64,000 nt of DNA from Marinicella meishanensis (GTDB lineage Bacteria > Pseudomonadota > Gammaproteobacteria > Xanthomonadales > Marinicellaceae). Shown here in pieces: positions 33,520 to 51,603 of this stretch (positions within the stretch are counted from its first letter, which is position 1; the number at the start of each line of letters is the position of its first letter). The position numbers and the translations under genes are program-made. The notes beneath the pieces are model-generated. The model was not told the origin of the DNA, made no database searches, and worked only from the letters and a program-made list of their open reading frames with translations. Where the stretch lies: positions 124,001 through 188,000 of the forward strand of contig NZ_JAIOUV010000011.1 in assembly GCF_019931145.1 (NCBI RefSeq), in the 5' to 3' direction.

Positions 33520-34761
33520 ATGAAAAAAATTTGCCTTTTGATTGCGGCCTTTTGGTCCTCGACCTCACTGGCACAAGTGCCCACCGATGTGGGCCTGGAA
33601 TTGGTCAATAGCGTCAGTGGCAACATGGGCGTCAGACACGCCGGTGATGGCAGCGGCCGCCTGTTTGTCATCAACCAGGACGGCGCCATCCGGGTCATCG
33701 ACGACCAAGACAATTTGCTGGCCACACCGTTCTTGGACATCGATGCCAAGGTTAATTCCGGCGGCAATGAGCAAGGCCTGTTGGGCTTGGCCTTCCACCC
33801 CAATTACAGCTCAAACGGCTATTTTTATGTGAATTACACCAAATCTGGCAGCAACTCCGGTGACACCATCATTGAACGCTACTCGGTATCAGCCGGAGAT
33901 GCCAATGTGGCCGATCCCAACTCCGGGGTGGTGATCATGCGCGTGATCCAGGATTTTGCCAACCACAACGGTGGCAACATCTTGTTTGGGCCTGATGGTT
34001 ACCTCTATATCGGTATGGGTGACGGCGGCAGCGGTGGTGATCCATTGGATCGCGGCTTGAACCTCGGTTCAGCCTTGGGCAGCATGTTGCGCATTGATGT
34101 GGACGGCAACAACGCACCCAACCACCCTGCCCCGGTCATGAATGAAGACCATGTCTGCCCCCAAGATGGCGCTGGCCAGTATGGCATCCCGGCCGACAAC
34201 CCATTTGTGGGTACCGCTGGAGCTTGTCCGGAAATTTGGACCTATGGCTTGCGCAACCCTTGGCGCTGGAGTTTTGACCGTGACACCGGCGACATGTTCA
34301 TTGGCGATGTGGGACAAGGCGCCCGCGAAGAAATCAGTTTCCAACCAGCCAATGGTGGCGGTGAAAACTTTGGCTGGAATTGCCGCGAAGGCGACATCGC
34401 CTACAACGGCTGTCCTGATTCCAGCGCTTACACCGCGCCAATTCTGGTGAAAACCCACGGCAGCTCTCGCTGTTCCATCACCGGCGGTTACCGCTACCGC
34501 GGACCGGTGGGCAGCATCCAAGGCGATTACATCTATGGGGATTATTGTTCAGGTCAGATTTGGTTTGCCAACAATGCCGGCGGCCCCTGGACCGAAGACG
34601 AGTGGAGCAACACCGGTGGTGTGAACTTCAGTTTTCAGCTGACCAGTTTTGGCGAGGATGAAGACGGCAACGTTTACATCGTCCGCCGCAGCGGTGACAT
34701 TTACCGCATCACCGGCGATCCATTACCGGATGATTTGATTTTCGCCAGCGATTTCGAATAA
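33520..34761 (+). CDS. Secreted PQQ-type glucose/sorbosone dehydrogenase with C-terminal tail motif
   Basis: A 413-residue secreted protein with a signal peptide (about 1-19, ending SLAQVP) and the six-bladed propeller of soluble aldose dehydrogenases. Segments such as EQGLLGLAFHPNY, GGNILFGPDGYLYIGMGDGG, IWTYGLRNPWRWSFD and DMFIGDVGQGAREEI match the Glucose/Sorbosone dehydrogenase (GSDH) family, whose members oxidise sugars with PQQ as cofactor. The chain ends in DLIFASDFE exactly at the stop, a tail shared with two other secreted proteins in this window. Lone gene with a strong terminator after it. No PQQ synthesis gene in view. Confidence 0.88.
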   Translation: MKKICLLIAAFWSSTSLAQVPTDVGLELVNSVSGNMGVRHAGDGSGRLFVINQDGAIRVIDDQDNLLATPFLDIDAKVNSGGNEQGLLGLAFHPNYSSNGYFYVNYTKSGSNSGDTIIERYSVSAGDANVADPNSGVVIMRVIQDFANHNGGNILFGPDGYLYIGMGDGGSGGDPLDRGLNLGSALGSMLRIDVDGNNAPNHPAPVMNEDHVCPQDGAGQYGIPADNPFVGTAGACPEIWTYGLRNPWRWSFDRDTGDMFIGDVGQGAREEISFQPANGGGENFGWNCREGDIAYNGCPDSSAYTAPILVKTHGSSRCSITGGYRYRGPVGSIQGDYIYGDYCSGQIWFANNAGGPWTEDEWSNTGGVNFSFQLTSFGEDEDGNVYIVRRSGDIYRITGDPLPDDLIFASDFE

Positions 34762-34769
34762 GCCAAGCC

Positions 34770-34809
34770 CACAAAAAAAGCCGGCCCTGTTGTGGCCGGC
34801 TTTTTTGTG
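34770..34809. terminator. Bidirectional terminator between sugar dehydrogenase and ychF
   Basis: AAAAAAAGCCGGCC and GGCCGGCTTTTTT flank a seven-base loop. The A and T runs on both sides let it serve both convergent genes. Confidence 0.9.
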
Positions 34810-34864
34810 CCTTGAATTCAGCGGCGACACTCAGGATTGACGCCGTCAGTTCCGTCAGATGGGC

Positions 34865-35956
34865 TCACACATTGAAGCGGAAGTGCAGCACATCCCCTTC
34901 TTTGACCAAGTAATCCTTGCCTTCCAAGCGCAGCTTACCGGCCTCTTTACAACCCGACTCACCTTGGTATTGGATGAAATCATCAAACGCCATGGTTTCG
35001 GCGCGGATAAAGCCCTTTTCAAAATCGGTGTGGATCACCCCAGCGGCTTGTGGCGCGGTGGCCCCGCTGACAAAAGTCCAGGCCCGCACTTCCTTGACCC
35101 CGGCGGTGAAATAGGTGTTCAAACCCAACAACTCATAACCCGCCCGAATCACCCGGTTCAGGCCCGCTTCTGACAGCCCCATTTCTGCCAAAAACTCGGC
35201 CTTGTCCTCATCATCCAACAAGGCAATCTCGGCTTCAATGGCGGCACAAACGGGCACCACCATGGCGCCTTCTTGTTCGGCAAATCCATGCAACTGATTC
35301 AACAAGGGGTTGTCGGTAAACCCTTGGTCATCGACATTGGCGATGTACATCATGGGTTTGGCGGTGATGAAACTGAATTCTTTGACCGCCGCCCATTCAT
35401 CTGGACCCAAATCCAATGTGCGCAAGGCCAGACCTTCGCTCAGATGGGCCACGATTTTTTCCAAGATGGCGGCCCGTTTCACCGCTTCCTTGTCCCCTGA
35501 TCGGGTTTTCTTTTGGGTCCTGACCAGGGATTTCTCAGCCGATTCCAAATCGGCCAGGGCCAATTCTGTGTTGATGGTTTCGATGTCTGACAAGGGGTTG
35601 ATCTTGCCATCCACATGCACCACGTCATCGTCTTCAAAACACCTGGCCACATGGGCAATGGCATCGGTTTCGCGGATGTGCGACAAAAACTGATTGCCCA
35701 AACCCTCGCCTTTGGAAGCGCCAGCCACCAAACCCGCGATGTCGACGAATTCCATGGTGGTGGGGATCACTTTTTGCGGTTTCACAATGGCCGCCAATTG
35801 ATCCAGCCGCAGGTCAGGCACTTCAACAATGCCAACATTCGGATCAATGGTACAAAAAGGATAGTTCTCGGCCGCAATCTCGGCTTTGGTCAACGCATTG
35901 AACAAGGTTGATTTGCCCACATTGGGCAGGCCCACAATGCCACATTTGAAACCCAT
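34865..35956 (-). CDS. ychF: Redox-regulated GTPase/ATPase YchF
   Basis: Obg-family P-loop NTPase that prefers ATP and binds the ribosome. ATG 35956 gives 363 residues opening [17 protein letters not shown] (P-loop), with [16 protein letters not shown] (G3), NVDDQGF in place of the canonical NKxD (the ATP-preferring variant) and a C-terminal TGS-like region ending HFRFNV. The longer open frame upstream is not needed. Convergent with the sugar dehydrogenase gene. Confidence 0.96.
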
Positions 35957-36152
35957 GGTTTGTTCCGGTAAAAAAAAGTGGCGGGATTTTACCACAAGAA
36001 ACCATCAGGCGTTACCCATCACCATCTGCCGGGCCCCAATTCCGCCCTCTGAGTGGTTGGCCAGATGGTAAATAGACGCAATAATTAACTGCCAAATCCG
36101 CTTGAATCATTTTATAATAGCGCCTTTCAGTCATTGAATGGAACACCCAACC

Positions 36153-36392
36153 ATGTCACAACTCAGCCAAGAAGAAATCGCGGAAATTAAGGACCACTTT
36201 GACTTTTTTGACAAGGATGGCAGTGGCCTGATCGACCTGGATGAATTCTGTCAGTTATTGAAGGTGTTGGCGCCAGATGCCAGCCAAGACAATGCGGTCC
36301 GTGGCTTTGCCACCATTGATGCCGATCACAACGAACAAATCGACTTTGATGAGTTTTTGGATTGGTGGAAAATGAACTGGACCGTGTTCTGA
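36153..36392 (+). CDS. Small EF-hand calcium-binding protein
   Basis: A 79-residue protein with two EF-hands. Loop 1 is DKDGSGLIDLDE and loop 2 is DADHNEQIDFDE; both have acidic residues at positions 1, 3, 9 and 12, so both should bind calcium. The layout is half of calmodulin. No signal peptide, so a cytosolic calcium buffer or sensor is likely. ATG 36153 is used; an ATG at 36138 would add five residues. Convergent with yggS. Such small EF-hand proteins are uncommon in bacteria and have no settled role. Confidence 0.85.
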   Translation: MSQLSQEEIAEIKDHFDFFDKDGSGLIDLDEFCQLLKVLAPDASQDNAVRGFATIDADHNEQIDFDEFLDWWKMNWTVF

Positions 36393-36429
36393 CGCCCGCT
36401 CAAATAGCGCCACTCAAACACCTCAATAA

Positions 36430-37113
36430 TCAGTATTCTCTGGGACCCAACAAATCCGTCCCCACCCGCAGACAGGTCGAACCGGCTTCGATGGCCGCCG
36501 CCAGATCTTGGCTCATGCCCATGGATAATGTGTCGATTTTTGGGTGTTGTTGCCGCAAATCATCAAACACCACTTTGGCTTGCCGCAAATAAGCCAACTG
36601 GGTGGCGTGGTCTGGGCTCGGTGGGGGGATGCACATCACGCCCCGCAGTTCAATGCTGGCAGATTTCGCGGCCCAATCAGCCATGTCTTTGAGGGTGGCC
36701 ACATCGGCCCCTGACTTGCTGACTTCTTCACCGACCTTGAGCTGCAACAAAACCTGCAGCGGTTGGTGACCCGCTGGACGTTGATCACTGAGGCGCTGCA
36801 ACACCTTGGGACGATCAACCGAATGGACCCAGTCAAAATGTTCGGCAATCAATTTGGTTTTGTTGGATTGGATCGGACCGATGAAGTGCCAGACCAAGGA
36901 CAAATGCGCCAGCTGTTTGATTTTTTCCACCCCTTCCTGGGCATAGCTTTCACCGAAATGCACTTGACCCAAGGCCGCCAGGGCCGCCACTTTTTCAGCG
37001 GGGTGTTTTTTACTCACCGCCAACAGCAGGGGCGCCTCAGTGCGCCCACTTGACTGGCAAGCGGCGGAGATGCGGCGGTGGACTTGTTGCCAGTTTTCAG
37101 ACAATCTGGACAT
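36430..37113 (-). CDS. yggS: PLP homeostasis protein YggS (PLPBP)
   Basis: Binds pyridoxal 5'-phosphate without known catalysis and keeps free PLP balanced. The 227-residue TIM-barrel-like protein has the PLP-lysine segment LLAVSKKHP, WHFIGPIQSNK, the phosphate-binding LSMGMSQDLAAAIEAGST and a C-terminal LRVGTDLLGPR. ATG 37113 is chosen; the open frame to 37236 lacks similarity. It is divergent from rpsU, with 255 bp between. Confidence 0.94.
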   Translation of the reverse strand: MSRLSENWQQVHRRISAACQSSGRTEAPLLLAVSKKHPAEKVAALAALGQVHFGESYAQEGVEKIKQLAHLSLVWHFIGPIQSNKTKLIAEHFDWVHSVDRPKVLQRLSDQRPAGHQPLQVLLQLKVGEEVSKSGADVATLKDMADWAAKSASIELRGVMCIPPPSPDHATQLAYLRQAKVVFDDLRQQHPKIDTLSMGMSQDLAAAIEAGSTCLRVGTDLLGPREY

Positions 37114-37254
37114 ATCGATGGTGGCGATTTTCGGGCTTGGATCAGGCCGCCATTTTATCGGATCGTGGCGGTGCTTGTCACCCGTCAGCCATGGTCGATG
37201 CTCAATCGGGTTCACAAAAAGCCCGCAACACGCCAAAAAAGTTGGATTTTAGCT

Positions 37255-37282
37255 TTGCATTTATAGACAAAACCCTTAAAAT
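37255..37282 (+). promoter_or_regulatory. Putative sigma-70 promoter of rpsU
   Basis: TTGCAT (37255-37260) and TAAAAT (37277-37282) are 16 bp apart, giving a leader of about 80 bases before the rpsU ATG. A GGAGAAC ribosome-binding site follows at 37354-37360. Confidence 0.6.
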
Positions 37283-37368
37283 ACGCGGTCTTTTTCCGGG
37301 CAGCTTAATGCTTGCTCAAAACCAACTAAAATGCCACATGAATGGCACCATTTGGAGAACACAAACTT

Positions 37369-37581
37369 ATGCCAAGTGTTAAAGTCAGAGACAACGAGCC
37401 GTTTGATTTCGCGCTGCGAAGATTCAAACGGGCTTGCGAGAAAGCCGGTGTATTGGCCGAATCACGCAAACGCCAATATTACGAGAAGCCAACCCAAGAG
37501 CGCAAAAGAAAGAAAGCCGCTGCAGTCAAACGCCTGCAAAGACGGGTTGCGAAGGAAGGCATTCCACGCAGAATGTATTGA
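37369..37581 (+). CDS. rpsU: 30S ribosomal protein S21
   Basis: A 70-residue basic protein beginning [20 protein letters not shown], with [20 protein letters not shown], the usual S21 sequence, and ending RRMY. It binds 16S rRNA near the anti-Shine-Dalgarno region and helps initiation. It heads the classic rpsU-(yqeY)-dnaG-rpoD macromolecular synthesis operon. Confidence 0.98.
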
Positions 37582-37627
37582 TCTGACCGATCAAGCCCAA
37601 TCAATCACCCACCCCAGGAAAGCAATC

Positions 37628-38071
37628 ATGACGCTCAAAGCGCAAATCATGGATGACATCAAGCGTGCCATGAAAGCCAAGGACAAAGCAACCGTTGGCA
37701 CCATTCGCATGCTCACCGCCGCCATCAAACAAGTGGAAGTGGATGAGCGTCGCGAATTGGCTGATGCCGACGTGTTGGACATTGTGGGCAAAATGATCAA
37801 ACAGCGCAAGGACGCCGCCAACCAATTTGAGCAAGCCGGTAGAACCGATCTGTTGGACCAAGAGCTGGCTGAAATTGCCATTTTGACCCATTACTTGCCC
37901 CAGCAACTGACCGCGGAAGAAATCACTGCGATTGTTGCTGAAACCATTGCCGCAACCAACGCCAGTGGCATGCAAGACATGGGTCAGGTCATGGGCCAGG
38001 TCAAAGCCAAAGTGGGCTTGAAAGCCGACATGGGCCAGGTCAGCCAAATCGTTAAGGCGGCTTTGTCATAA
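37628..38071 (+). CDS. GatB/YqeY domain protein
   Basis: A 147-residue helical protein starting at ATG 37628 behind CCAGGAAAGC. It contains TLKAQIMDDIKRAMKAKDK, VEVDERRELAD and the C-terminal YLPQQLTAEEI-MGQVMG blocks of the YqeY family, which shares a domain with the tRNA-binding tail of GatB. Often placed between rpsU and dnaG, as here. Its role in translation is presumed, not proven. Confidence 0.95.
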   Translation: MTLKAQIMDDIKRAMKAKDKATVGTIRMLTAAIKQVEVDERRELADADVLDIVGKMIKQRKDAANQFEQAGRTDLLDQELAEIAILTHYLPQQLTAEEITAIVAETIAATNASGMQDMGQVMGQVKAKVGLKADMGQVSQIVKAALS

Positions 38072-38115
38072 CCCCCTCTTATAGTATCATCATGGATTTG
38101 ACCGCGTAGTGGCTT

Positions 38116-39813
38116 GTGGCATCCATTCCCAATGAATTCATCGACGAGTTGTTGGATCGCATCGACATTTGCGATGTGATTGGCGCGCGCGTGTCGCTGA
38201 AAAAAGCCGGCAAGGACTTCGCCGGTTTGTGTCCGTTTCACGCCGAAAACACCCCCTCTTTCACGGTGTCGCAACAAAAACAGTTCTACCACTGTTTCGG
38301 TTGTGGCAAGAACGGCAGTGCCATTGGCTTTTTGATGGAATACGAGGGCCTGGATTTTGTCGATGCGGTCAAAGACCTGGCCCAATTGGCCGGGGTTGAG
38401 GTGCCGATGACCGGCGGCACCGGTGGTCAATCGAACAAATCCAATTTGTACAGCGTCACCGAAAAAACCACCCGCATCTTCCAACATCAACTGAAAAATG
38501 CCCCGGCGGTGATCGACTATTTGAAAAATCGGCGCATCTCAGGCACCACCAGCCAAACGTTTCAGCTGGGCTACGCCCTGGATGAGTGGGATGGCCTGAT
38601 GAAACGGTTCAGCCCCGAAGAACATGGGCTGTTGGACAAAACGGGCTTGATCACACACAATGACCGCGGTCGGACTTACGACAAATTCCGCAACCGCCTG
38701 ATGTTCCCCATCCACGACAAACGGGGGCGGGTGATTGCCTTTGGCGGACGTGCGATTGAAGCCGAGCAAAAGCCCAAGTATCTGAATTCACCGGAAACCG
38801 AATTGTTCCACAAAAGCCAGGAACTGTATGGTTTTCACCTGGCCCGCAAACACAGCCAGGAAGACCACATCTTGGTGGTGGAAGGCTACATGGATGTGAT
38901 CGCCTTGCACGAACATGGCATCACCAACGCGGTCGCCACTTTGGGCACCGCCACCTCGGCCCAACACATCAGCAACCTGTTCAAAACCTGGGACCGGATC
39001 GTGTTTTGTTTTGACGGGGATTCCGCCGGGGTCCAAGCGGCTGACAAAGCCCTGTTGACGGCTTTGCCGCTGTATTTGGACAACCGCATCATTGACTTTT
39101 TGTTCTTGCCAGAGGGTGAAGATCCAGACAGTTTCATCAGCCAACATGGGGCCGAGGCTTTTCGCCAACAGCTGGCCGATGCCGAGCCCTTGTCAGAACG
39201 GCTGCTGAAGATCATTGGACGCCAAATCAACACCCAAACCATCGACGGCAAGGCCCAATTCCAAGAAAAAGCCAAACCCTTCATCAATCAATTGCCCAAA
39301 GGAGCCTTCAAGAACATGATGGCCGAACAGGTGGCCCGCATCACCGGCCTGGCGCTGGATGCCAAATCGGCCGCCGTGACTGCGCCTAAACAGCCGCAAA
39401 ACCTCAGCAACAACCCCATGCGGCAGGTGATCAGTTTGTTGCTGAATTCACCGCAACTGTGTGAAAAAATCCCCAATGCACTCAACTTCAGAAATTTATC
39501 GTTTAAAGGCATTGAAATTATTGATAAAATCGTTGAAATTCATCGCCAGAACCCCCACATCAACGCAGCGGCGATGCTGGAAAAGTTCAGGGACAGCGAA
39601 TACAGCCAATATCTGGGGCAATTGATGCGCCGATATGATCATTTGGATGAGCAACAGCAAGCCATGGAATTTGATGACATCATGAATTACCTGCTTAAGC
39701 TGACCACCCAGGCTCAGATTGAAGGCTTGAGAATCAAACAAATGCAGTCCGGACTGAGTGACGAAGAAAAACAAACTTTGGTACAACTGTTGCGCCAACG
39801 TAACCACAATTAG
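38116..39813 (+). CDS. dnaG: DNA primase DnaG
   Basis: Makes RNA primers for replication. Starts at GTG 38116 and has 565 residues. The zinc-binding domain has Cys39, His42, Cys60 and Cys63 (CPFH and CFGC). The TOPRIM core (about 175-360) has [12 protein letters not shown] and [12 protein letters not shown] metal-binding segments. The C-terminal domain (about 430-560) is the DnaB-helicase interaction region. It follows yqeY by 44 bp in the operon. Confidence 0.97.
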
Positions 39814-39821
39814 ACAAACAT

Positions 39822-41639
<1,818 letters not shown>

Positions 41640-41662
41640 TCTGTCAGGTTAACAGCCACATC

Positions 41663-41694
41663 AAAAAAGGCCTCTGCTTGAGGCCTTTTTTTTG
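41663..41694. terminator. Bidirectional terminator after rpoD
   Basis: AAAAAAGGCCTC (41663-41674) pairs with GAGGCCTTTTTT (41680-41691) across a five-base loop. It can end both rpoD and the convergent parvulin gene. Confidence 0.92.
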
Positions 41695-41714
41695 TGCTTA
41701 TAGACTGGCCGCGT

Positions 41715-42512
41715 TCAGTCCTGAACTTGGACTTTGGCTTTGATCACTGCCAACTGGCGATAACGCTCAATCAACTGACGCTCCAAAGAGGCTTGGATGC
41801 CGGCTTTGACCTGCTCATAATCCGGTGCCGCCAAAGCCCGTTTGTCCTGTAAAAACAACACGTGCACACCAAACTGGCTGTTGATCACTTGCCCGTAATG
41901 TTGTCCTGGCTGCAGGGTCTCCAGTGGCGCCCTGAAGGCTTCCGGCACTTGCATGATGTTGACCCAACCAATGTCGCCGACATTCTTGGCTTGCGGCAAA
42001 GCGGCCAAATAGCTCGCTTCCAAATCCACATAAGACGCCCCGGCGGCCAATTGATCCAAAGCGGTCAAAGCGGCCACTTCGTCCTGATACAACAGGTGGC
42101 GCACGTGGTATTCCACACCTTTGAGTTCTGCAGTCACCCGTTGGTATTCTTCCTTGATGGCTTCTTCGGTGATGGGCCGGTCCGCCAGGTATTGCTCAAT
42201 GGCGGCTTGCGCCATGACTTGATGACGGGCCATCTCCATGCGCAACGACTCAGTTAATGCAGGTTGGATGTCATTGACCTTGGCTTGGTGGGCCAAAGCC
42301 ATTTGTTGGATCAACTCATCCAGCGCCCGTTGCCGTTGTTGGGCATTGGGCTCGGTCACGCCTTGGCTTTGCAGGTAGGTCTGCAGGTACTGCTCGGTCA
42401 AGCCCCAGTCGCCGACTTGTGCCAACACCGGTGAGTGATCAGCGATGGATTGGGTGGCTTCTTGTTGGCAAGCCAACAGCGGAACAAATAACAACAGCAT
42501 CAGGTATTTCAT
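41715..42512 (-). CDS. Parvulin-type peptidyl-prolyl isomerase lipoprotein
   Basis: A 265-residue periplasmic foldase. The N-terminus has a lipoprotein signal (FVPLLACQQ, lipid on Cys15), then a SurA-like helical chaperone part with LDELIQQMALAHQA, and a parvulin domain (about 135-235) with YHVRHLLYQ, GDIGWVNIMQVPEAF and INSQFGVHVLFLQDKR. It should speed proline isomerisation of outer membrane or secreted proteins. Related to the PpiC/EpsD/PrsA group. Upstream of it on the same strand is bolA, 18 bp away. Confidence 0.92.
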   Translation of the reverse strand: MKYLMLLLFVPLLACQQEATQSIADHSPVLAQVGDWGLTEQYLQTYLQSQGVTEPNAQQRQRALDELIQQMALAHQAKVNDIQPALTESLRMEMARHQVMAQAAIEQYLADRPITEEAIKEEYQRVTAELKGVEYHVRHLLYQDEVAALTALDQLAAGASYVDLEASYLAALPQAKNVGDIGWVNIMQVPEAFRAPLETLQPGQHYGQVINSQFGVHVLFLQDKRALAAPDYEQVKAGIQASLERQLIERYRQLAVIKAKVQVQD

Positions 42513-42530
42513 GGGTTTGGTTTATTCAGG

Positions 42531-42827
42531 TTAGGGTGAAACGGCATTAGGGGTGAGGGCCTCGACTTCCAAGGCATGGATGCGGCCATTTTGAAACAAG
42601 TCAGTCAGTTGTTGATAGACCAGGCGATGACTTTGAATGCGATTCAAGCCGGCAAAGGCATCGGCCACCACCCGCACCGCAAAGTGCCCCCCGCCCGATT
42701 GGGCCCCGGCATGCCCCACATGCAAGTGGGAGTTGTCGGTGACTGCGGCTGATGCAGCACCCCATAGCAGCAGCAACTGCTCAATCTGTTCCGCGGTTTG
42801 TTGGTGTTGGCTCATGAATTCGGTCAT
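42531..42827 (-). CDS. BolA-family protein
   Basis: A 98-residue protein (94 from the second ATG at 42815) with the BolA/IbaG stress-protein fold: DNSHLHVGHAG, GGHFAVRVVADAF, and RIQSHRLVYQQL containing the invariant His. Such proteins bind iron-sulfur clusters with monothiol glutaredoxins. The DNSHLHVGH form fits BolA rather than IbaG. Divergent from arsC; TAAAAT- and TATAA-like sequences lie in the 86-bp gap. Confidence 0.9.
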   Translation of the reverse strand: MTEFMSQHQQTAEQIEQLLLLWGAASAAVTDNSHLHVGHAGAQSGGGHFAVRVVADAFAGLNRIQSHRLVYQQLTDLFQNGRIHALEVEALTPNAVSP

Positions 42828-42913
42828 CGGTTTGGGTCAACTTGACGGCATGACAAGGCCACCATTATAACGTAAAATAGCGGGCTTTAAAGACCAAGCC
42901 TCACACCACCCAC

Positions 42914-43261
42914 ATGGCCCAATACACCATTTATCACAACCCCCGTTGTTCCAAATCCAGAGCCACTTTGGCGCTGTTACAAGCGCACACCGATGACATC
43001 GAAATCATCAAGTACCTGGAGCAACCACCCTCGGTTGCGACCCTGCAACAGTTGCTCATAGCCTTGGGCCTGCCCGCGCAAGCCATTTTGCGACGCGGAG
43101 AAAGCGAGTACAAAGCACATGGCTTTGCCGAAGCCGATGAGGCCAGCGTCCTGGCCTTGTTACAAGCGCATCCCAAAGTGCTGGAACGCCCCATCGTGGT
43201 GCACCAAGACCGCGCGGTGATTGGTCGCCCACCCGAAAATGTCCTGGATTTGTTCTCATGA
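42914..43261 (+). CDS. arsC: Glutaredoxin-dependent arsenate reductase ArsC
   Basis: A 115-residue reductase with the catalytic Cys in YHNPRCSKSRATLALL, the LRRGESEYK segment with one active-site Arg, and RPIVVHQDRAVIGRPPENVL with the further Arg residues. It reduces arsenate to arsenite through glutaredoxin. No arsenic pump or regulator gene is adjacent, so it may be part of general metabolism. The wrbA start overlaps its stop by four bases. Confidence 0.93.
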   Translation: MAQYTIYHNPRCSKSRATLALLQAHTDDIEIIKYLEQPPSVATLQQLLIALGLPAQAILRRGESEYKAHGFAEADEASVLALLQAHPKVLERPIVVHQDRAVIGRPPENVLDLFS

Positions 43262-43830
43262 CCCGCATCCTGATCCTGTACTACTCCAAACACGGCAACA
43301 CCCAACGCATGGCGCGGCTGATGGCCCGAGGCGTTGAGTCGATTGACGGATGTGAAGCGGTGTTGCGCACCGTGGAGTCAGACTTGCCCGATGCCGAGGC
43401 ACCCAATGACGTGCTGGTCACCGAACAAGACATGATCGACTGTGACGGCATGGTGCTGGGCAGCCCCAGCTACTTTGGCAACATGGCTTCACCCTTGAAA
43501 AAATTCATCGACACCACCGGCAACCTGTGGTTTTCTGCGGCCATGGAAGGCAAGCCTGGCAGTGTGTTTTGTACCGCCTCATCTTTGCACGGCGGTCAAG
43601 AAACCACTTTGATGAACATGATGGTGCCGCTGTTGCACTTTGGCATGTTGATCATGGGTTTGCCCTATTCCGAAAAGTCTTTGCTGTACACCCAATCAGG
43701 CGGCTCCCCCTATGGCGCCACCCATTGGGCTGACTTTGAATCCAATCGCGACATCGACAAAAACGAGAAACAATTGTGTCTGGCACAAGGCAAACGCATG
43801 GCCGAAATGGCCAAAAAACTGCGCGCCTGA
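43258..43830 (+). CDS. NAD(P)H:quinone oxidoreductase, WrbA family
   Basis: A 190-residue flavodoxin-fold protein binding FMN; two-electron reduction of quinones protects against semiquinone radicals. It has the phosphate loop YYSKHGNTQRMARL, GSPSYFGNMASPLKKF, CTASSLHGGQETT and GSPYGATHW segments of the family. Translationally coupled to arsC (ATGA). The same gene pair is common in gammaproteobacteria. Confidence 0.93.
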   Translation: MTRILILYYSKHGNTQRMARLMARGVESIDGCEAVLRTVESDLPDAEAPNDVLVTEQDMIDCDGMVLGSPSYFGNMASPLKKFIDTTGNLWFSAAMEGKPGSVFCTASSLHGGQETTLMNMMVPLLHFGMLIMGLPYSEKSLLYTQSGGSPYGATHWADFESNRDIDKNEKQLCLAQGKRMAEMAKKLRA

Positions 43831-43846
43831 AATCGCCCCGTAGTCG

Positions 43847-45244
43847 CTACAAAAAGAAATGCCCAATCCGCGCCGAGCCCAACCACGGGTCGCTCATGAA
43901 TTGATAGAACATCAATGCCAACAGGGCATGTGAGAAACTGTTGAGGTACAGGTTGCGGTAGCGCAGCCAACTGTAGGACCACACCACACCGCCAGCCAGC
44001 GTGGCCAACATGAGCATGTGGTTCGGCGCATGCACCACCGAAAACAACACCCCGACCAGCACCGCAAGGGTTCCATCTGACACCGTTAATTCCGTCCGCA
44101 AGTGGTCGGTCATGACCGGCCCCAACAACAGCTGTTGCACCCAGGCCCACAGGAAATACATGGGCAAACCAGTGATGAAGCCACCGTGCCGGCCTGAGTA
44201 CAGCCACATCACCAGCGCCACCAATAAAGTCCCGATCAACACCGGCCAGCCAAACTGTGATGGGCGCTTGAAATGGGTCCTGAAACCCCACATCAAAGCC
44301 ACCGCCCCCAACGGCACCAGCCAATACAATATTTGGCCCAAATCAAACGGCCACTTGATGTGCATCAAACCGATACCCAAAGGCACCAAGCCCACCACAG
44401 CGAACAGGCGCAGGCGCTGTTTGACCGGGTGTGAGGCCTGACTCCAGGCGCCAACCACCACCCACAACAAGCCCGCTGCAAACAACAGCCACAACAGCGG
44501 TGCAAGCGGTGATGTCGGCACCACCAATTGTTGGCTCAGTCCAGCACGTTGGGTCTGCTGATCATGGTGGTGCATTTGATTGGTCAACCAACACGCGCTG
44601 TTAAACCACGATGGCTGGTTTTGGCAAAGCTGGACCTGAATGGTCAGCCCGCGGGTATCTGGCCACTGGGCCAGTTCGATGGAACCCAAAGACCAGGTGC
44701 TGCCAGCTGGGCCGTAAAAGCGCACCACCAAGGCATCCAATGTGGGCAAGTCAGACCAATTCATTGACTGGGTTGACCAATGGCCATCGTCACCCATTTT
44801 CTGTGACCACCGCAATTGCGCCAAATCCATGGCTTGATTCAACTTCGAAGCAGGCAGCTCACCAGAATCAAAGTACCTCGGCGTGGTCTGGTCTGAAAAT
44901 TCAAGTCGAAAACGACTGCCCTCAGGCAGCGTGCCGCGGGTGGTGATGGTCAACAGCCCTTGCCATCGGGGATCCAGGTACTGCCCAGCGAAGTGCATGG
45001 ATATGGCCGGTTCTGGCCCCGCACTCAGCAAACCGTCCGCGACCATTTGCCATTCGTCTTGAAAACTGGAAACCACCTGTGCCCGGCTGGACAGGTCCCA
45101 GAAAAAAGCCAAGGACTGGCTGTTGATTTGCGCGGCACGCGATGCGTTTTGCTCATGCACGTGTATCGCCACATAGGCCCACGAAAACACCGCCATCAGT
45201 GACCAAATCAGCCCCAACAACAGCCATTGAAAGACCCGCCTCAT
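43847..45244 (-). CDS. CPBP-like membrane protein lacking the EExxxR motif
   Basis: A 465-residue protein with an N-terminal helix (about 5-27), a periplasmic region (about 30-240) and a C-terminal block of seven or eight membrane segments. The latter resembles the CPBP/Abi intramembrane protease domain: FSVVHAPNH and NSFSHALLA correspond to the second and third His motifs, but the first, EExxxR, reads QQLLLG here. It may be an inactive relative or a variant enzyme. Lone gene, divergent from the beta-helix gene by 109 bp. Confidence 0.7.
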   Translation of the reverse strand: MRRVFQWLLLGLIWSLMAVFSWAYVAIHVHEQNASRAAQINSQSLAFFWDLSSRAQVVSSFQDEWQMVADGLLSAGPEPAISMHFAGQYLDPRWQGLLTITTRGTLPEGSRFRLEFSDQTTPRYFDSGELPASKLNQAMDLAQLRWSQKMGDDGHWSTQSMNWSDLPTLDALVVRFYGPAGSTWSLGSIELAQWPDTRGLTIQVQLCQNQPSWFNSACWLTNQMHHHDQQTQRAGLSQQLVVPTSPLAPLLWLLFAAGLLWVVVGAWSQASHPVKQRLRLFAVVGLVPLGIGLMHIKWPFDLGQILYWLVPLGAVALMWGFRTHFKRPSQFGWPVLIGTLLVALVMWLYSGRHGGFITGLPMYFLWAWVQQLLLGPVMTDHLRTELTVSDGTLAVLVGVLFSVVHAPNHMLMLATLAGGVVWSYSWLRYRNLYLNSFSHALLALMFYQFMSDPWLGSARIGHFFL

Positions 45245-45353
45245 GGCCCAACCCCTTGCTGGCCATGGGCGAAGAAATCGCTGTGATGTGTCATCTTTTT
45301 GGTCACAAATCCGAATCCTGAGTACAAGTCATTTTAAATTCAAAGAGACCATC

Positions 45354-47369
45354 ATGAAACAACTGATCACAATTATTTTACTCACCTTTGCCTGGTTCAC
45401 CGAGGCCGCCAATTGGCCTGACACCGTGGCGCCCTGTAACACCACCCTCCAAGCCTGTGTGGATGGGGTGGCAGAATATGAAACCATTTTCATCAACACG
45501 TCAACCGTGATCGATGAGTCCATCTCAGCCATCAAATCCGTGTCATTGGTCGCTGGCAACGGTTATCGACCGGTGTTTGCTGCTGGACGTCATGTAGAAT
45601 TGACCCATGTGGCCAACAGCAATCGCACCACCCGCATTGAAGGCCTCACTTTTGAGCGGGGACGGATTGCTTATAACCACCAATCCGGCTCCACCACCGG
45701 TGGCGCCTTGGTCATCAGAAACAACCGGGTGCTGGACAATGCTTTCCAATTTGAAAGCATCCGCATCTTGAACTTCTCCAACCAAACCCTGACACTCAAT
45801 GTGGATTACAACCAAGTGCATTACACCGCCACATCTGGCAGCTCCAATTCACGCGGTGCCATTCGCGTACAAACCGGTTTCAGCCCCACTTCTGGCAGCA
45901 GTGGGGTCACTTTTGGCCGCATTTATGGCAACAGTGTGTTCACCGCAGGGCCTGATTCAATCGGTATCGGACTGTTCACCTACGCCGACACTGAATTGAG
46001 CCTTGATGTGGGTGGTAATGAGGTCTGGGGCGGTCAGACCGGTGGCTTGTTTTCGTTCAGCACCGGCGGTACTGCTTTGGTTGATTTGGACATCGGTAAC
46101 AACGCTTTTTATGCCAACGCTGTCGGCGAATTGTTCCGCGGGGTGTTTTTGCAGTCATTTGCTGGCACCACCTCGGCTGACATCGTCAACAACACCGCCT
46201 TGGGCGCCTTTGATGCTTTCAATTTCGATGAATCCACCCCTGGGGCCCTCGATGTCTACCTGTATAACAATTTGATGGCCTATGGCAGCGCTGCTGTTTA
46301 TACCGACAGCCAAACCACCCTGACCAACGATTTCAATTTGTCTTACATGAATTCATTTTCAGACCCAGATTTTATACCAGGTCCCAACCACTTGAATGTC
46401 AACCCCGAAATCATGGGCCTGCACAATGGCCGCCTGCGTCCGGGCTCTCCAGCCCTGGAGGCTGGCAATGGCCTGGCCTTGTTGGCTTTGGGCGCCACCC
46501 CATTTGTCGATGCCGATGGCACCAGTCGAATCAAAAAAGGGGACGCATCAGTCGGCGCGCAATTGGTCGACATTGGGGCCTATGAAAGCGGTGATTTGTT
46601 TTTTAACCACGTGACCAACAGTGCCGGCCACATCAGCACCATGGACAACGATGCTTTCAATGACAACAGCGCCCTGGACAACATCCATGTCACCGCCAAC
46701 TGGAACCCGCCCGGTGGCAGCGGGGTTTACAACAACGACCATGAAGGCATTTACTATGCCAGTGGTTTTTGGCGCATCTTCAACCAAGGCTTCACCGCCT
46801 TTGAGCCCAACGCCACTTTCAATGTGCACCAATATGGCAACACCTCCAACACCATTGAACACACCGCCAGTGGCGGCAACAACAACACCGTGATCGACCA
46901 CAGCAGTTTGAACAATCAAAGCGACCGCATCGTACAAGTCACGCAAAACTGGATTGGTGAATACAACCCGCATCCAGTGGGCGTGTTGTATTTTTCAGGC
47001 TCGTGGCTGATTGCCAACTTTGATTTGGCCAACATCCCGGCCAACAGCCACTTCAACGTGTACAGCCAACCACCCAGCAAGAGTGCGTTCAAACATGTGG
47101 CCAGTGCCGCCAACACCTTTGATCAAGTCACTTATTTGGACCACCCTTTGATCAATGGCGTGGCTTGTGCCGAACTCCAAGTCACCCAAAGTGGCGAGCA
47201 AGGGGTGTTCAATGACGCGCCCATTGGGGTGTATTATGAAGCAGGCAGCTGGAGCATTTATAACCAGGACTTGAGTGACATGCTGCCCAATTCGGCCTTT
47301 CACATTATGGTCAACCCAGCCCAGATCGCCGAGTGTACCGACTTGATCTATGCCGACGATTTTCAGTGA
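45354..47369 (+). CDS. Secreted parallel beta-helix protein with three DUF7452-like repeats and C-terminal tail
   Basis: A 671-residue secreted protein from ATG 45354 with a signal peptide (about 1-18, ending FTEAAN). A long right-handed beta-helix-like region (about 50-410) has repeated NN turns (IRNNRVLDN, IGNNAFYAN, IVNNTALG, LYNNLMAY). The C-terminus (about 425-660) holds three copies of a roughly 85-residue unit with NWNPPG, GVYNN, SGFWRIFNQ and PNATFNV-type blocks, which I recall as DUF7452. The chain ends with DLIYADDFQ at the stop. It resembles secreted adhesin or polysaccharide-acting proteins; no catalytic site is evident. Paralogue at 49636-51603. Confidence 0.82.
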   Translation: MKQLITIILLTFAWFTEAANWPDTVAPCNTTLQACVDGVAEYETIFINTSTVIDESISAIKSVSLVAGNGYRPVFAAGRHVELTHVANSNRTTRIEGLTFERGRIAYNHQSGSTTGGALVIRNNRVLDNAFQFESIRILNFSNQTLTLNVDYNQVHYTATSGSSNSRGAIRVQTGFSPTSGSSGVTFGRIYGNSVFTAGPDSIGIGLFTYADTELSLDVGGNEVWGGQTGGLFSFSTGGTALVDLDIGNNAFYANAVGELFRGVFLQSFAGTTSADIVNNTALGAFDAFNFDESTPGALDVYLYNNLMAYGSAAVYTDSQTTLTNDFNLSYMNSFSDPDFIPGPNHLNVNPEIMGLHNGRLRPGSPALEAGNGLALLALGATPFVDADGTSRIKKGDASVGAQLVDIGAYESGDLFFNHVTNSAGHISTMDNDAFNDNSALDNIHVTANWNPPGGSGVYNNDHEGIYYASGFWRIFNQGFTAFEPNATFNVHQYGNTSNTIEHTASGGNNNTVIDHSSLNNQSDRIVQVTQNWIGEYNPHPVGVLYFSGSWLIANFDLANIPANSHFNVYSQPPSKSAFKHVASAANTFDQVTYLDHPLINGVACAELQVTQSGEQGVFNDAPIGVYYEAGSWSIYNQDLSDMLPNSAFHIMVNPAQIAECTDLIYADDFQ

Positions 47370-47380
47370 ATGAAACGACT

Positions 47381-47405
47381 TTGCCCTGATGTCCTGTCAG
47401 GGCAA
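47381..47405. repeat. Hairpin downstream of beta-helix gene
   Basis: TTGCCCTGA (47381-47389) pairs perfectly with TCAGGGCAA (47397-47405). No T run follows, so terminator activity is uncertain. Confidence 0.5.
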
Positions 47406-47612
47406 GGCCAATCCTTGTTTGGCGCAAAAAATCACACAAGGCGAATCACTCCAACGGGCTCTATGGCTTGGATATGTCAGAAACGTTCAGGCCCGGATAT
47501 TCTGAAGCTTTACTTGCTGTGGCTCAATTAACTGTCTTGACAGTCAACAATTGTTTTCAGCGGCCACATCTGAGATTCGGAAACGCCGACAGACTCCAGC
47601 TCAACTCACCGA

Positions 47613-49349
47613 TCAATCAAAGTCATCGGCAAAGATTAAATCCAATGGGTAGCTCTCAAGTCCACCCAAATCATATGAACCGTGCAAGTTTGGTCTGCTG
47701 TTGTCGACCGGTCTTGCCAATCCATTGGCAGAAGTATTTGATCGCACACCCAACAAACTTGAATCACAATAATCAACCAGCGTGTTAACCAAACGGTAAT
47801 CTCCAGCGGCCCGGTCTACAAAGCTGGGCGTTTGGTCGGTTGAACGAGGTTCGAGTGCAAATGATCCCAAGGGATCAATTCTGTTGCAATCCCCAACCGG
47901 ATCAGCGCCCAAAGTGGTCAGATCAACAGACTCAGTGAAACCATTGAATTCATAAAATATGGACCCGACCACCAAGACTTCATGCACATCACCAAAGGTC
48001 GTTGGATAAGCCACTTCAATCACCCGATCCATGTCTTCGTTGTCGATAAATGTAGAGAATCCAATGTGAGCAGAAGATTCATCCAGGTACACTACTTGTG
48101 AAGCGTTCCTGTTCTTGGCAAAGACATTACCGACCATGGTCACATCGGTAAAAATTGAATCAAAAGGCATGAACCGGGCCCTGATGGCGCTGCCATGAAA
48201 GGCAGAATTGCCTTCCAGATAAGTGCCAGTTACGGTCAATGTACCACCAAAAGTGGCGATGGCTCCACCGCCTTGGAATGATGAATCACTACCGAAAACC
48301 CTGTTTTCAGAAACCGTTGAACAGCGATCCTCGGTGTGGCATTGCGCCCCAGGTAAGGTTCGCTGAATGATCACTTGACCATTGTTCGAACGAATCCCGC
48401 CGCCAGTCGATGTGGCCGTGTTGTTGTTGATGATGGCATCACTGGCCACCAGACTGGCGCCGCCCGCCACCGCAATACCACCACCATTTTGAGCTGAGTT
48501 TGAAATGACTGCGGCCTGACCACTGGAAAAAACTGAATGGCTGTCCAGACTGATTTCAGCATGGTTATTGGCATAGATGCCCCCACCAAAGAATCCCGCT
48601 TCATTCAGGATGATGCCTTGCAAGGGGCCTGCGCCAGATTGGTAATAAATACAGTCATTGTTGGCATAGATGGCGCCACCACTCTCTGTGGCCACATTGC
48701 CCATCAACTGGGTGTCAAATACAGTGATGACTGCCAGGCCATCACATGCAATGGCGCCACCATTGGTGGCGGTGTTGTTGTTGAGGATGCTGTTACCATA
48801 AACAAAAACCTCTGGAAATGAGACCAAGCTGTTGTTTGAGGGTTCCACAAAGATGGCACCACCATCACCTACACTGCTGTTGTTGTGCAGGTAAACATTG
48901 ACCAACTCAACGCCCCAACTGCCGGCAATATGCATCACACCACCCGATGTACCTCGATTTCCACCGGAAATTTCCAAATCCACCAAAGAGAGTACATCAA
49001 TCGCGCCACCGGTCAATTCACTCTCGGTGACCAGAAAGATGGCACCATTGAAGCCACTGCCATCGAGCACCGTTCTGCCTGAAGGCGTTTCGTCTGTACA
49101 ATCATCAAAGCCACCCCGAATGCTGGTGTTCCGGGCTGACAAAACCTGAAAGGTGTCCAAAACATAGTTTTTTGACACCCTGATTTCCAAAAAATCAGAA
49201 GCGGGTTCATTGAAACTGACTGCAGAAATGCTGTTGTAATCACATGTGGGGTCCGTATCTGGCCCCACAGTCACTGTGGTGCTGGATCCAGCGTAAGACT
49301 CGCTGACCAATGAAATTAACAAGGTAACCACCCAAATAATACGCATCAT
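47613..49349 (-). CDS. Secreted beta-helix protein with GG(A/G)I repeats and C-terminal tail
   Basis: A 578-residue secreted protein from ATG 49349, which has CAGGAGATTT at good distance. The signal peptide covers about residues 1-20. From about 110 to 430 it repeats GGAIF/GGAIY/GGGIY/GGGIR-type motifs followed by NN or asparagine-rich turns (for example NTATNGGAIACDG and ATESGGAIYANND), the pattern of polymorphic outer-membrane-protein and parallel beta-helix repeats. The C-terminal end has LDLIFADDFD at the stop. Function unknown; probably surface or secreted. It lies between two paralogues of another beta-helix family but is not similar in detail. Confidence 0.8.
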   Translation of the reverse strand: MMRIIWVVTLLISLVSESYAGSSTTVTVGPDTDPTCDYNSISAVSFNEPASDFLEIRVSKNYVLDTFQVLSARNTSIRGGFDDCTDETPSGRTVLDGSGFNGAIFLVTESELTGGAIDVLSLVDLEISGGNRGTSGGVMHIAGSWGVELVNVYLHNNSSVGDGGAIFVEPSNNSLVSFPEVFVYGNSILNNNTATNGGAIACDGLAVITVFDTQLMGNVATESGGAIYANNDCIYYQSGAGPLQGIILNEAGFFGGGIYANNHAEISLDSHSVFSSGQAAVISNSAQNGGGIAVAGGASLVASDAIINNNTATSTGGGIRSNNGQVIIQRTLPGAQCHTEDRCSTVSENRVFGSDSSFQGGGAIATFGGTLTVTGTYLEGNSAFHGSAIRARFMPFDSIFTDVTMVGNVFAKNRNASQVVYLDESSAHIGFSTFIDNEDMDRVIEVAYPTTFGDVHEVLVVGSIFYEFNGFTESVDLTTLGADPVGDCNRIDPLGSFALEPRSTDQTPSFVDRAAGDYRLVNTLVDYCDSSLLGVRSNTSANGLARPVDNSRPNLHGSYDLGGLESYPLDLIFADDFD

Positions 49350-49635: not shown

Positions 49636-51603
49636 ATGAAAATCATCACCACCATCACTTTACTCATCATCGCACAATTGGGACTGGCTGTTGATTGGCC
49701 TGGTATCACCGCACCTTGTAACAGCTCCTTACAAGCGTGTGTCAATGGCAGCGCCGAGCACACCACCATCTTCATCAACACCAATGGTGTGATCAACGAG
49801 ACCATTGAAACCAACAAAGCCATTTCCCTGGTGGCTGGGAACGGCTATAAGCCGGTGTTTTCCGAAGGGCATCATGTGGAGATAGTCAACACAGCCACCA
49901 CTCATCGAACGGTGCGGATTGAGGGTTTGACTTTTCTGCGGGGCGGCATCGCCTACACCCATGCATCAGGGTCACTTGCCGATGGTTCGCTGGTGATTAA
50001 AAACAACCACATAACTGCCAGCAATTCCTCGATTGGCAACATCAAAATAGTCAACCAATCATGGTATAACGAATTGTCCATAAACGTGGATTTTAACCAC
50101 CTTCATGATGACCGAATTTACCATGAATCAAACAACACAGTTGACTTAGAAGCATTCAGCAAAATCACTGGGCGCCTCTATGGCAACACCATACGAAACA
50201 CCGGATTCACACCCAAAGCCATCAATCTATTTTCTTGGGACACTGGTGGATTGGATTTAGACATCATTGGCAACGAGCTCTACAACGGTCACAACAGCAC
50301 CAGCCTATTTGCCAGAAGTAGCGGAGGTTTAATCCATTTAGACATCGGTCACAATGCATTTTATGCCAATGACAGCAGCGAACTGTATGATGCGATTTTT
50401 ATTGTCACCCATGGAACCAGCCGCGCCAAATCAAAAATTGTCAACAACACCATTTTGGGTGCCAATATGGCCTTGCAATTCAACCCAGGTCCAGGTCCAC
50501 AAGACGTCTACTTATACAACAACATAGTGGCCTATTCATTCATGGCAGTCAGGGTGATGAATAATCATGCGGCGATGTACATGGCAAACGATCATAATTT
50601 ATATCACATGGTATCAAATCCTGACTCACATTTTACTCGCGGACCCAATCACTTGAACATCGATCCTCAGGTCAAAGGCCTGCAAAACGGTCGGCTTGGG
50701 CCCGAATCACCGGCCATCGATTCAGGTCATATCTTGAGTTTGCTGGCCCTGGGCGCCGTACCCATGATCGATGCCGATGGCACCAACCGCATCAAATATG
50801 GCATCTCCTCCAGTGGCCTGCCACAGCTTGACATGGGCGCTTATGAATTTGGCGACGAATTTTTCATCCATCAAAGCAACACCACGTCCCATGTGAGTCG
50901 CATTGAAGATGACGCCATCAACGGCGAGAATACAGCCAATGACATCCACCTGACCGCCAATTGGAACCCCCCAGGTGTCCCAGGTGTTTACAACAACGAC
51001 AATGAAGGACTGTATTATGCAGGCGGATTTTGGCGCATCTTCAATCAAGGCATACGCCGTTTGGCGCCCAATGCCTCGTTCAATGTCTACCAGTACAACT
51101 CTGACAGCTCTTTTGGGCACACCGCATTGGCAGGTGACAGTTACAGCATTTTGGATCACCGCACTTTGGACCAACAGGCCGACCGCATTGTACAGATCAC
51201 CCAAAGTTGGCGCGGGGTGTACAACCCCCACCCGGTCGGGGTGATGCCTTTCTTTGGTCATTGGTTGGTGGTCAACATGGATTTGGCAGACATCCCAGTT
51301 GGTAGTCACTTCAACATCTACAGCCAAGAGCCCAGTAAAAGCGCTTGGACACACATTGCCAGTGAAGCCAACAGCACAAGTCACATCACGTTCCTTGATC
51401 ACCCATTGATCAATGATGTCAATTGTGCCCAATTACAGGTCACGCAAAGCGCCGAAGAAGGGGTGTTCAATGCGGCACCAATTGGCGTGTATCACACGGG
51501 CATTGGCTGGGCCATTTTTAATCAAGACTTCAGCACCATGCAGCCTGGTTCGGCATTCCATGTGATGGTCAACCCAGCACAAATCGATGCCTGCACCGAA
51601 TGA
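49636..51603 (+). CDS. Secreted parallel beta-helix protein, paralogue without the C-terminal tail
   Basis: A 655-residue paralogue of the gene at 45354-47369, matching throughout: WPGITAPCNSSLQACVNG against WPDTVAPCNTTLQACVDG near the start, the same NN repeats and the three C-terminal units (NWNPPGVPGVYNNDNEGL, YNPHPVGVMPFFGHW and the last ending VNPAQIDACTE). It starts at ATG 49636. Unlike its paralogue it stops right after ACTE and lacks the DLIYADDFQ-like tail. It is shorter by 16 residues overall. AT content is higher than in the paralogue. Confidence 0.82.
   Translation: MKIITTITLLIIAQLGLAVDWPGITAPCNSSLQACVNGSAEHTTIFINTNGVINETIETNKAISLVAGNGYKPVFSEGHHVEIVNTATTHRTVRIEGLTFLRGGIAYTHASGSLADGSLVIKNNHITASNSSIGNIKIVNQSWYNELSINVDFNHLHDDRIYHESNNTVDLEAFSKITGRLYGNTIRNTGFTPKAINLFSWDTGGLDLDIIGNELYNGHNSTSLFARSSGGLIHLDIGHNAFYANDSSELYDAIFIVTHGTSRAKSKIVNNTILGANMALQFNPGPGPQDVYLYNNIVAYSFMAVRVMNNHAAMYMANDHNLYHMVSNPDSHFTRGPNHLNIDPQVKGLQNGRLGPESPAIDSGHILSLLALGAVPMIDADGTNRIKYGISSSGLPQLDMGAYEFGDEFFIHQSNTTSHVSRIEDDAINGENTANDIHLTANWNPPGVPGVYNNDNEGLYYAGGFWRIFNQGIRRLAPNASFNVYQYNSDSSFGHTALAGDSYSILDHRTLDQQADRIVQITQSWRGVYNPHPVGVMPFFGHWLVVNMDLADIPVGSHFNIYSQEPSKSAWTHIASEANSTSHITFLDHPLINDVNCAQLQVTQSAEEGVFNAAPIGVYHTGIGWAIFNQDFSTMQPGSAFHVMVNPAQIDACTE

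Follow-up and report, generated by a model that had tools for sequence, protein, structure and literature searches.

We report that three proteins encoded in a 64,000-nucleotide stretch of the Marinicella meishanensis genome (contig NZ_JAIOUV010000011.1, positions 124,001 to 188,000; hereafter the window) end in DLIFASDFE, DLIYADDFQ, and DLIFADDFD, which translation places directly at the stop codon in each case, and that at least 84 proteins of this genome carry, as a C-terminal tail, D-[LVI]-I-[FY]-x-x-[GDN]-F-[ED] or a sequence close to it, either at the stop codon or no more than 12 residues before it. This tail is nearly confined to one bacterial order, the Lysobacterales/Xanthomonadales, within which, judging from genome sequences, it is likely to be linked to a type II secretion system (T2SS) of split gene arrangement; the link is correlational.

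The genome (3.99 Mb) was searched with degenerate DNA patterns. The pattern TWYGSNNNNRRNTTYSANTRR gave 29 matches compared with 4 for the reversed pattern, and GAYNTNATHTWYNNNNNNRRNTTY gave 77 compared with 1; in 70 of these 77, the second phenylalanine lay no more than 13 residues from the stop codon and the frame ahead of it stayed open for 60 codons or more. The tail thus occurs at C termini far above chance, as its initial annotation as a shared C-terminal signal implied. After removal of six loose matches from 86, we collected 80 tail proteins from 70 stretches; the four further ones comprise three that surfaced in the control list described below and one encoded near gspF. The consensus of the 80 tails reads Asp (76); Leu, Val, or Ile; Ile (76); Phe (72) or Tyr (8); a variable residue; Asp, Asn, or Thr; Gly or Asp; Phe (80); and Glu or Asp (73), a constancy that is partly by construction because the search patterns and regular expression demanded some of these residues, so that the independent evidence for the tail is its excess over reversed patterns together with its C-terminal placement. 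The proposed position at the protein end holds in the sense that the tail is C-terminal, though it may stop short of the last residue: in 33 of the 80 proteins at least one extra residue comes after it, and between 0 and 12 residues follow the nine-residue motif. Codon choice is common to some of the tails (29 of 80 have GCC as the fifth codon), as would be expected if a spreading DNA repeat or a recent duplication were translated by chance. We rejected this scarcely credible explanation because synonymous codons vary among the 80 tails, the adjoining DNA is unconserved, the hosts are unrelated, and 78 of 79 matches to a more stringent pattern end frames.

We next consider the proteins that carry the tail. 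Genes were taken as the longest open reading frame (ORF), and home-made rules were used to call signal peptides; the resulting counts are rough. With a lenient rule, a signal peptide was called in 61 of the 68 strict-tail proteins (58 of 65 tail proteins of at least 150 amino acids), compared with 244 of 446 neighboring control ORFs of at least 150 amino acids; under a stricter rule, the figures were 57 of 80 and 129 of 446. By eye, 18 of the 23 N termini missed by the stricter rule resemble signal peptides, giving ∼75 of 80 in all, and the claim that the tail sits mostly on signal-peptide proteins therefore stands. BLAST single linkage divided the 80 proteins into 52 unrelated families, the largest with 13 members. 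In Pfam/NCBIfam tallies, which cover the 25 commonest families only (e.g. the top 25 of 87 for the tailed set and of 169 for its tail-less neighbors), the commonest matches of the tailed set are to domains of extracellular kinds and include β-helices, FG-GAP and lactonase propellers, InhA-type MAM, M14 peptidases, and Ig-like domains, and the set also matches choice-of-anchor Q/I/B/D/J, rhombosortase- and myxosortase-dependent M36, ExeM/NucH nuclease, and endonuclease I families; NCBIfam matches were taken at E ≤ 1, some of them below curated cut-offs, and at this threshold choice_anch_Q matched 16 of 80 and rhombosortase-dependent M36 matched 5 of 80. Among 104 tail-less signal-peptide neighbors (kept from 109 after three true and two degraded tails had been removed by eye), the commonest families were TPR, amidohydrolases, α/β hydrolases, TonB receptors, outer membrane efflux proteins (OEP), OmpA, S41, and redoxins. 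When the 36 C-terminal residues of each collected protein were scanned against a model library, with matches listed by model and not by residue, only choice_anch_Q (11 proteins) matched more than one protein, and no curated model of the tail was seen; in the window protein at 45354–47369, choice_anch_Q lies ∼250 residues ahead of the tail.

Searching GTDB genomes with the stringent pattern gave 79 matches in 78 stretches. The 78 that end frames are from Marinicella, Dokdonella, Pseudofulvimonas, Wenzhouxiangella, and other Lysobacterales, and from metagenome-assembled genomes labeled Xanthomonas, Alcanivoracaceae, Gammaproteobacteria, Proteobacteria, or Pseudomonadota, bearing out the link to Marinicella and Xanthomonadales that the initial annotation had named. 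The 79th match, from Thermoanaerobaculales (L240) and hence outside the order, reads SPAQ/DLIFADDFEWG at a mature N terminus and was read into TGG; this string may form the first strand of a different secreted fold and may be a source of the tail. In a class-wide draw with another pattern, the window's own genome gave 26 matches compared with 0 reversed, and outside the order 18 matches in 16 of 271 gammaproteobacterial genomes compared with 11 reversed, which is near chance. Nothing relevant to the motif or a matching system was found among the open-licence PMC matches listed, which does not establish its absence from print.

The initial annotation had suggested looking for a co-occurring export gene, and a split T2SS was found to track the tail, with exceptions. 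We compared terminal tail counts with matches to the T2SS gene gspG across 259 genomes of the order, 204 of which were classed as good; genomes with at least four terminal matches were called tail-rich, and a gspG match at E ≤ 1e-42 was taken to indicate T2SS-A. Among the 204 good genomes, T2SS-A was present in 51 tail-rich genomes and absent from 4, and present in 45 tail-poor genomes and absent from 104 (Fisher p of about 1e-16, uncorrected for relatedness). The same association was seen inside families: in f12, T2SS-A occurred in 5 of 5 tail-rich genomes compared with 2 of 51 tail-poor genomes (p 5e-6), and, more weakly, in f8 in 2 of 3 compared with 1 of 19 (p 0.04). In f1, 20 of 21 tail-rich genomes have T2SS-A, genome G018 is without both, and the tail-poor genome G020 has T2SS-A. 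We obtained the T2SS-A loci of 52 genomes, hand-chosen to cover families; among A-positive genomes, these are 27 of the 65 that are tail-rich and 25 of the 59 that are tail-poor. In all 27 tail-rich loci, gspG stands without gspD or gspF beside it, mostly with recognizable gspH–K and often with gspL/N; G397 has a weak gspE-like match, and in G041 no more than gspG and gspH could be recognized. In 13 of the 25 tail-poor genomes, the T2SS is of the one-operon type only, in which gspD/E/F lie alongside; the 13 include all 11 inspected from f2 and both of those from f12. By locus type, f2 thus divides into 2 of 2 tail-rich genomes with the split arrangement and 11 of 11 inspected tail-poor genomes with the one-operon arrangement. 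In a gspG tree whose bootstrap had not settled, one-operon T2SS-A sequences fell into several groups, most of them on long branches.

In the window's genome, gspGHIJK lie at 75.0–78.0 kb of one contig (C2), and gspC (with a PDZ domain), gspD, gspE, and gspF lie at 118.6–124.1 kb of another (C9), where the fifth gene after gspF encodes a tailed protein. No gspL/M/N was recognized beside gspGHIJK here (L283), unlike in many relatives (compared with L289 and L333). A second, one-operon T2SS is encoded on contig C8, its gsp names resting on secretin and gspG matches, gspE/gspF similarity, and gene order; its protein in the GspC position has no Pfam match. A third secretin sits in a pilMNOPQ-like cluster, as judged by gene order. 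PF03934, tried as a T2SS marker, was set aside as unspecific, since it matched 8 of 14 control genomes. Most tailed proteins have what T2SS substrates need, namely Sec/Tat signal peptides and a T2SS in the genome.

Several observations weigh against assigning the tail to the split T2SS. The species are related, so the counts above are not independent events. The T2SS-A gspG is missing from 4 of 55 tail-rich good genomes and from 11 of 76 over all 259; three of the four are fragmented drafts (G007, G048, and G333), and the fourth, G387 of f8, is the clearest exception, with ten tails, no T2SS-A gspG, 98% completeness, and ∼80 contigs. By gspG presence, f2 gives no significant association (2 of 2 tail-rich compared with 21 of 56 tail-poor genomes, p 0.15), and f9 gives no contrast (4 of 4 compared with 20 of 21). 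The other 12 of the 25 inspected tail-poor genomes, ten of them from f9, have the split arrangement, so that a split T2SS can evidently work with few tails. In these 12, an unanchored pattern gave 191 matches compared with 20 reversed, 152 of the 191 from four genomes (matches/reversed: G360, 34/0; G348, 44/1; G404, 49/9; G050, 25/2); it gave 2 compared with 0 in four one-operon genomes and 15 compared with 10 in seven genomes without T2SS-A. Some tails are therefore probably present in f9, placed farther from the stop codon, although only 4 of 14 inspected matches were convincingly C-terminal (L361, L363, L367, and L376). The GspC PDZ domain, tried as a tail-specific reader, is a candidate only: weak PDZ matches also occur in four tail-poor one-operon GspC proteins, so no subunit is singled out. 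Furthermore, the placement of gspCDEF apart from gspGHIJK has been shown for the window's own genome only, and the profiled families comprised T2SS and rhombosortase only. Given this profiling scope, the tail-rich G387, and the f9 genomes that combine a split T2SS with few terminal tails, the tail might instead be read by some other machinery or by a processing enzyme whose distribution in the order simply parallels that of the split T2SS. We consider this rather improbable, as it sits poorly with the co-variation inside f12, f8, and, by locus type, f2, and with the resemblance of the cargo to that of GlyGly-CTERM.

The three window proteins illustrate how the tail is attached. The first (33520–34761, forward strand) is a secreted glucose/sorbosone dehydrogenase-like (GSDH) protein (Pfam GSDH, E 7.6e-35) with the signal peptide MKKICLLIAAFWSSTSLA, and its tail DLIFASDFE occupies 34732–34758. 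Alignment of its best PDB relatives stops at residue 393 of 413, short of the tail; in an alignment of six rows, Asp-405, Ile-407, Phe-408, and Phe-412 are invariant and the spacer ahead of the tail varies in length. A fold predicted from a four-row alignment had a mean pLDDT (predicted local distance difference test score) of 37 and was not used. The second (45354–47369, forward strand) is a β-helix protein with DUF7452 and choice-of-anchor Q (choice_anch_Q) profile matches, aligned with its paralogues; the gene had been listed from 45243, and a start at 45354 is more likely. Its tail DLIYADDFQ occupies 47340–47366 and, like the third tail, was also found as a genome-wide pattern match. The third (47613–49349, reverse strand) is a β-helix protein with POMP repeats (NCBIfam POMP_repeat, E 8.2e-15) and the tail DLIFADDFD at 47616–47642. 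Translation confirmed the annotated position of the three tails exactly at stop codons; the hosts proved to belong to different families, in agreement with the claim that they are unrelated, and each passed the signal-peptide rule, as had been stated for all three. At 49636–51603 (forward strand), the window also encodes a paralogue of the second protein, 53% identical to it, that ends in IDACTE at the point where its twin runs on into the tail. No tail remnant was found just downstream in three frames, and a third paralogue elsewhere in the genome is tailed; judged by alignment of the three, the protein at 49636–51603 is a natural tail-less counterpart of its twin.

The tail is conserved at the protein level, beyond complete domains. 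Each of the 18 positions ahead of it carries less than 0.5 bits (n = 80); the ThuA domain ends at residue 249 of 264 and endonuclease I at 696 of 722 in tailed proteins; and among GSDH and endonuclease homologues the spacer shifts in length and sequence while the tail is kept. Together with the tail-less paralogue, these results dispose of the concern that the tail is part of a longer folded domain. Its pattern does resemble a short β strand, and some tailed proteins are β-rich, as would suit an edge strand that caps the fold or stabilizes it, or a guard against C-terminal proteolysis, with no part in sorting. Such a role is very unlikely in view of the 52 unrelated families, the complete domains that end before the tail, the tail-less paralogue, the co-variation with a secretion system, and the different families found among tail-less signal-peptide neighbors. 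Two proteins carry a pair of tails in tandem at their end, as though an older tail had been followed up with a newer one (L230:4588–6903, forward strand, and L209:2354–3400, reverse strand). A scan for the motif after signal peptides returned 12 rows, most of them chance; two proteins of the window's genome stand out, both without a C-terminal tail, namely a metzincin-like protein with two tandem copies behind its signal peptide, AVAQ/LIFRHGFEGDFIFSAGFE (L160:1424–2644, reverse strand), and one with GMAQ/DLVFKTGFE in that position (L095:6661–7089, reverse strand). In a protein of f9 (L358), the motif perhaps lies just behind the cleavage site. These tandem and N-terminal copies fit a portable linear peptide. 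Separately, one protein (L121:16523–17962, forward strand) has DLIFANNFD internally, with 163 residues after it.

The C-terminal excess, the signal peptides, and the split T2SS support the initial annotation of the tail as a sorting or secretion signal, whose function, including its reading by the split T2SS, the subunit that would read it, and the surface destination, we infer. We tentatively propose that the tail could quite possibly be a portable linear sorting tag for export by the split T2SS to or through the outer membrane. Tailed proteins would cross the inner membrane by Sec (one appears Tat-like by eye) and fold in the periplasm, exposing D-[LV]-I-F-x-D/N-G/D-F-E at the chain end, nearly always the C terminus. 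A periplasmic part of the split T2SS, for which a GspC/GspD surface and the GspH–K pseudopilus tip are candidates, would dock the tail, and the system would then deliver its cargo across the outer membrane or to the outer membrane surface. The link to a T2SS, the linear exposed peptide, the unrelated folded cargo, and the N-terminal and tandem copies together fit a docking peptide. It is conceivable, and we say so with some reserve, that this would be the first shared linear T2SS secretion signal: nine residues long, C-terminal, tandem, or occasionally at the mature N terminus, and recruiting dozens of unrelated folded proteins to one specialized split T2SS in much of the order.

The closest competing explanation is that the tail is a surface-retention (anchor) tag that acts after the T2SS as an equivalent of GlyGly-CTERM, bound or joined to a surface receptor. 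The present data are compatible both with an export signal and with such a tag. Many tailed families carry anchors elsewhere (choice-of-anchor Q/I/B/D/J and rhombosortase- or myxosortase-dependent M36), and the genomes with a split T2SS and few tails fit an optional extra. GlyGly-CTERM is itself described as a T2SS-linked cell-surface tag in PMC6219818, and its proteins as needing a separate secretion signal in PMC13393428; in Wenzhouxiangella AB-CW3, according to PMC7691419, no proteolytic activity was excreted to the medium and activity stayed with the cells. Nevertheless, the 80 tails contain no hydrophobic segment, conserved cysteine, or obvious attachment chemistry, no receptor was found, and the occasional N-terminal copies do not fit C-terminal cleavage and transfer. 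On balance, we regard a retention tag as unlikely, if far from implausible. How a T2SS chooses its cargo is a long-standing open question, which a short tag on more than 80 proteins of one genome, together with a candidate T2SS, makes directly testable, the more so as paralogues lacking the tail provide natural controls and sister genera poor in tails are available for comparison. If export by the split T2SS is the correct reading, the secretomes of much of the order would be predictable from sequence, and the tail would be a compact tag with which Gram-negative hosts could be made to display or secrete proteins.

Among the known sorting systems closest to the tail, GlyGly-CTERM/rhombosortase of Vibrio and Acinetobacter likewise is a C-terminal tag on many secreted proteins with overlapping cargo families and a T2SS link. 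The tail differs in that GlyGly-CTERM is tripartite, with a glycine motif, a transmembrane helix, and a basic cluster, and is cleaved by rhombosortase, none of which applies to the tail: the 0–12 residues that follow the motif contain no transmembrane segment or basic cluster of the PEP-/GlyGly-/MYXO-CTERM class. GlyGly-CTERM was rejected for the window's genome, where the best match to the rhombosortase model TIGR03902 scored 44.3 bits against a cut-off of 84. The initial annotation had set the tail apart from PEP-CTERM and GlyGly-CTERM for its lack of a membrane helix and basic cluster, and the rhombosortase result agrees (exosortase was not searched). Of 61 genomes, two had a TIGR03902 match above the cut-off, among them the tail-less G044 (106.8 bits), and seven genomes of genus g3 of f1 (G021, G025, G027, and G029–G032) scored 72.9–84.0 bits; given these rhombosortase-like genes, some genomes may sort proteins in the GlyGly-CTERM manner, either alongside the tail or in its stead.

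PEP-CTERM/exosortase and MYXO-CTERM/myxosortase are also lineage-wide C-terminal sorting tags. Both require a membrane helix as well as a membrane enzyme, whereas the present tail is nine residues long, soluble, and acidic. The C-terminal domain (CTD) of the type IX secretion system of Bacteroidota is a fold of ∼80 residues that sends Sec-exported proteins to the surface. It shares with the tail a C-terminal location and differs in that conservation here spans nine residues, with little information at the 18 upstream positions, and in the link to a T2SS; no CTD model was found in the scans of the last 36 residues, a length below that of a CTD. Type I secretion signals, which are C-terminal and come without a cleavable Sec signal peptide, do not match, as most tailed proteins have signal peptides, nor do PDZ ligands with a free hydrophobic last residue, as the ninth residue is usually acidic and extra residues often follow. 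PEP-CTERM was discovered through phylogenetic profiling, according to PMC1569441 and PMC11980579. Within the T2SS, PMC7949064 describes loop 3 of PelI/Pel3 (a nine-residue loop in PelI) as a short exposed element that acts via GspC/GspD in recruitment, and PMC12369372 describes the VesB Ig-fold as read through the GspC PDZ domain. The tail would likewise be a short exposed element, unlike them in that they are parts of folded domains in single proteins. The first of these sources finds no common linear sequence apparent among T2SS substrates, and PMC6617341 calls the secretion signal poorly defined; a docking peptide carried by dozens of proteins would stand in contrast to that view.

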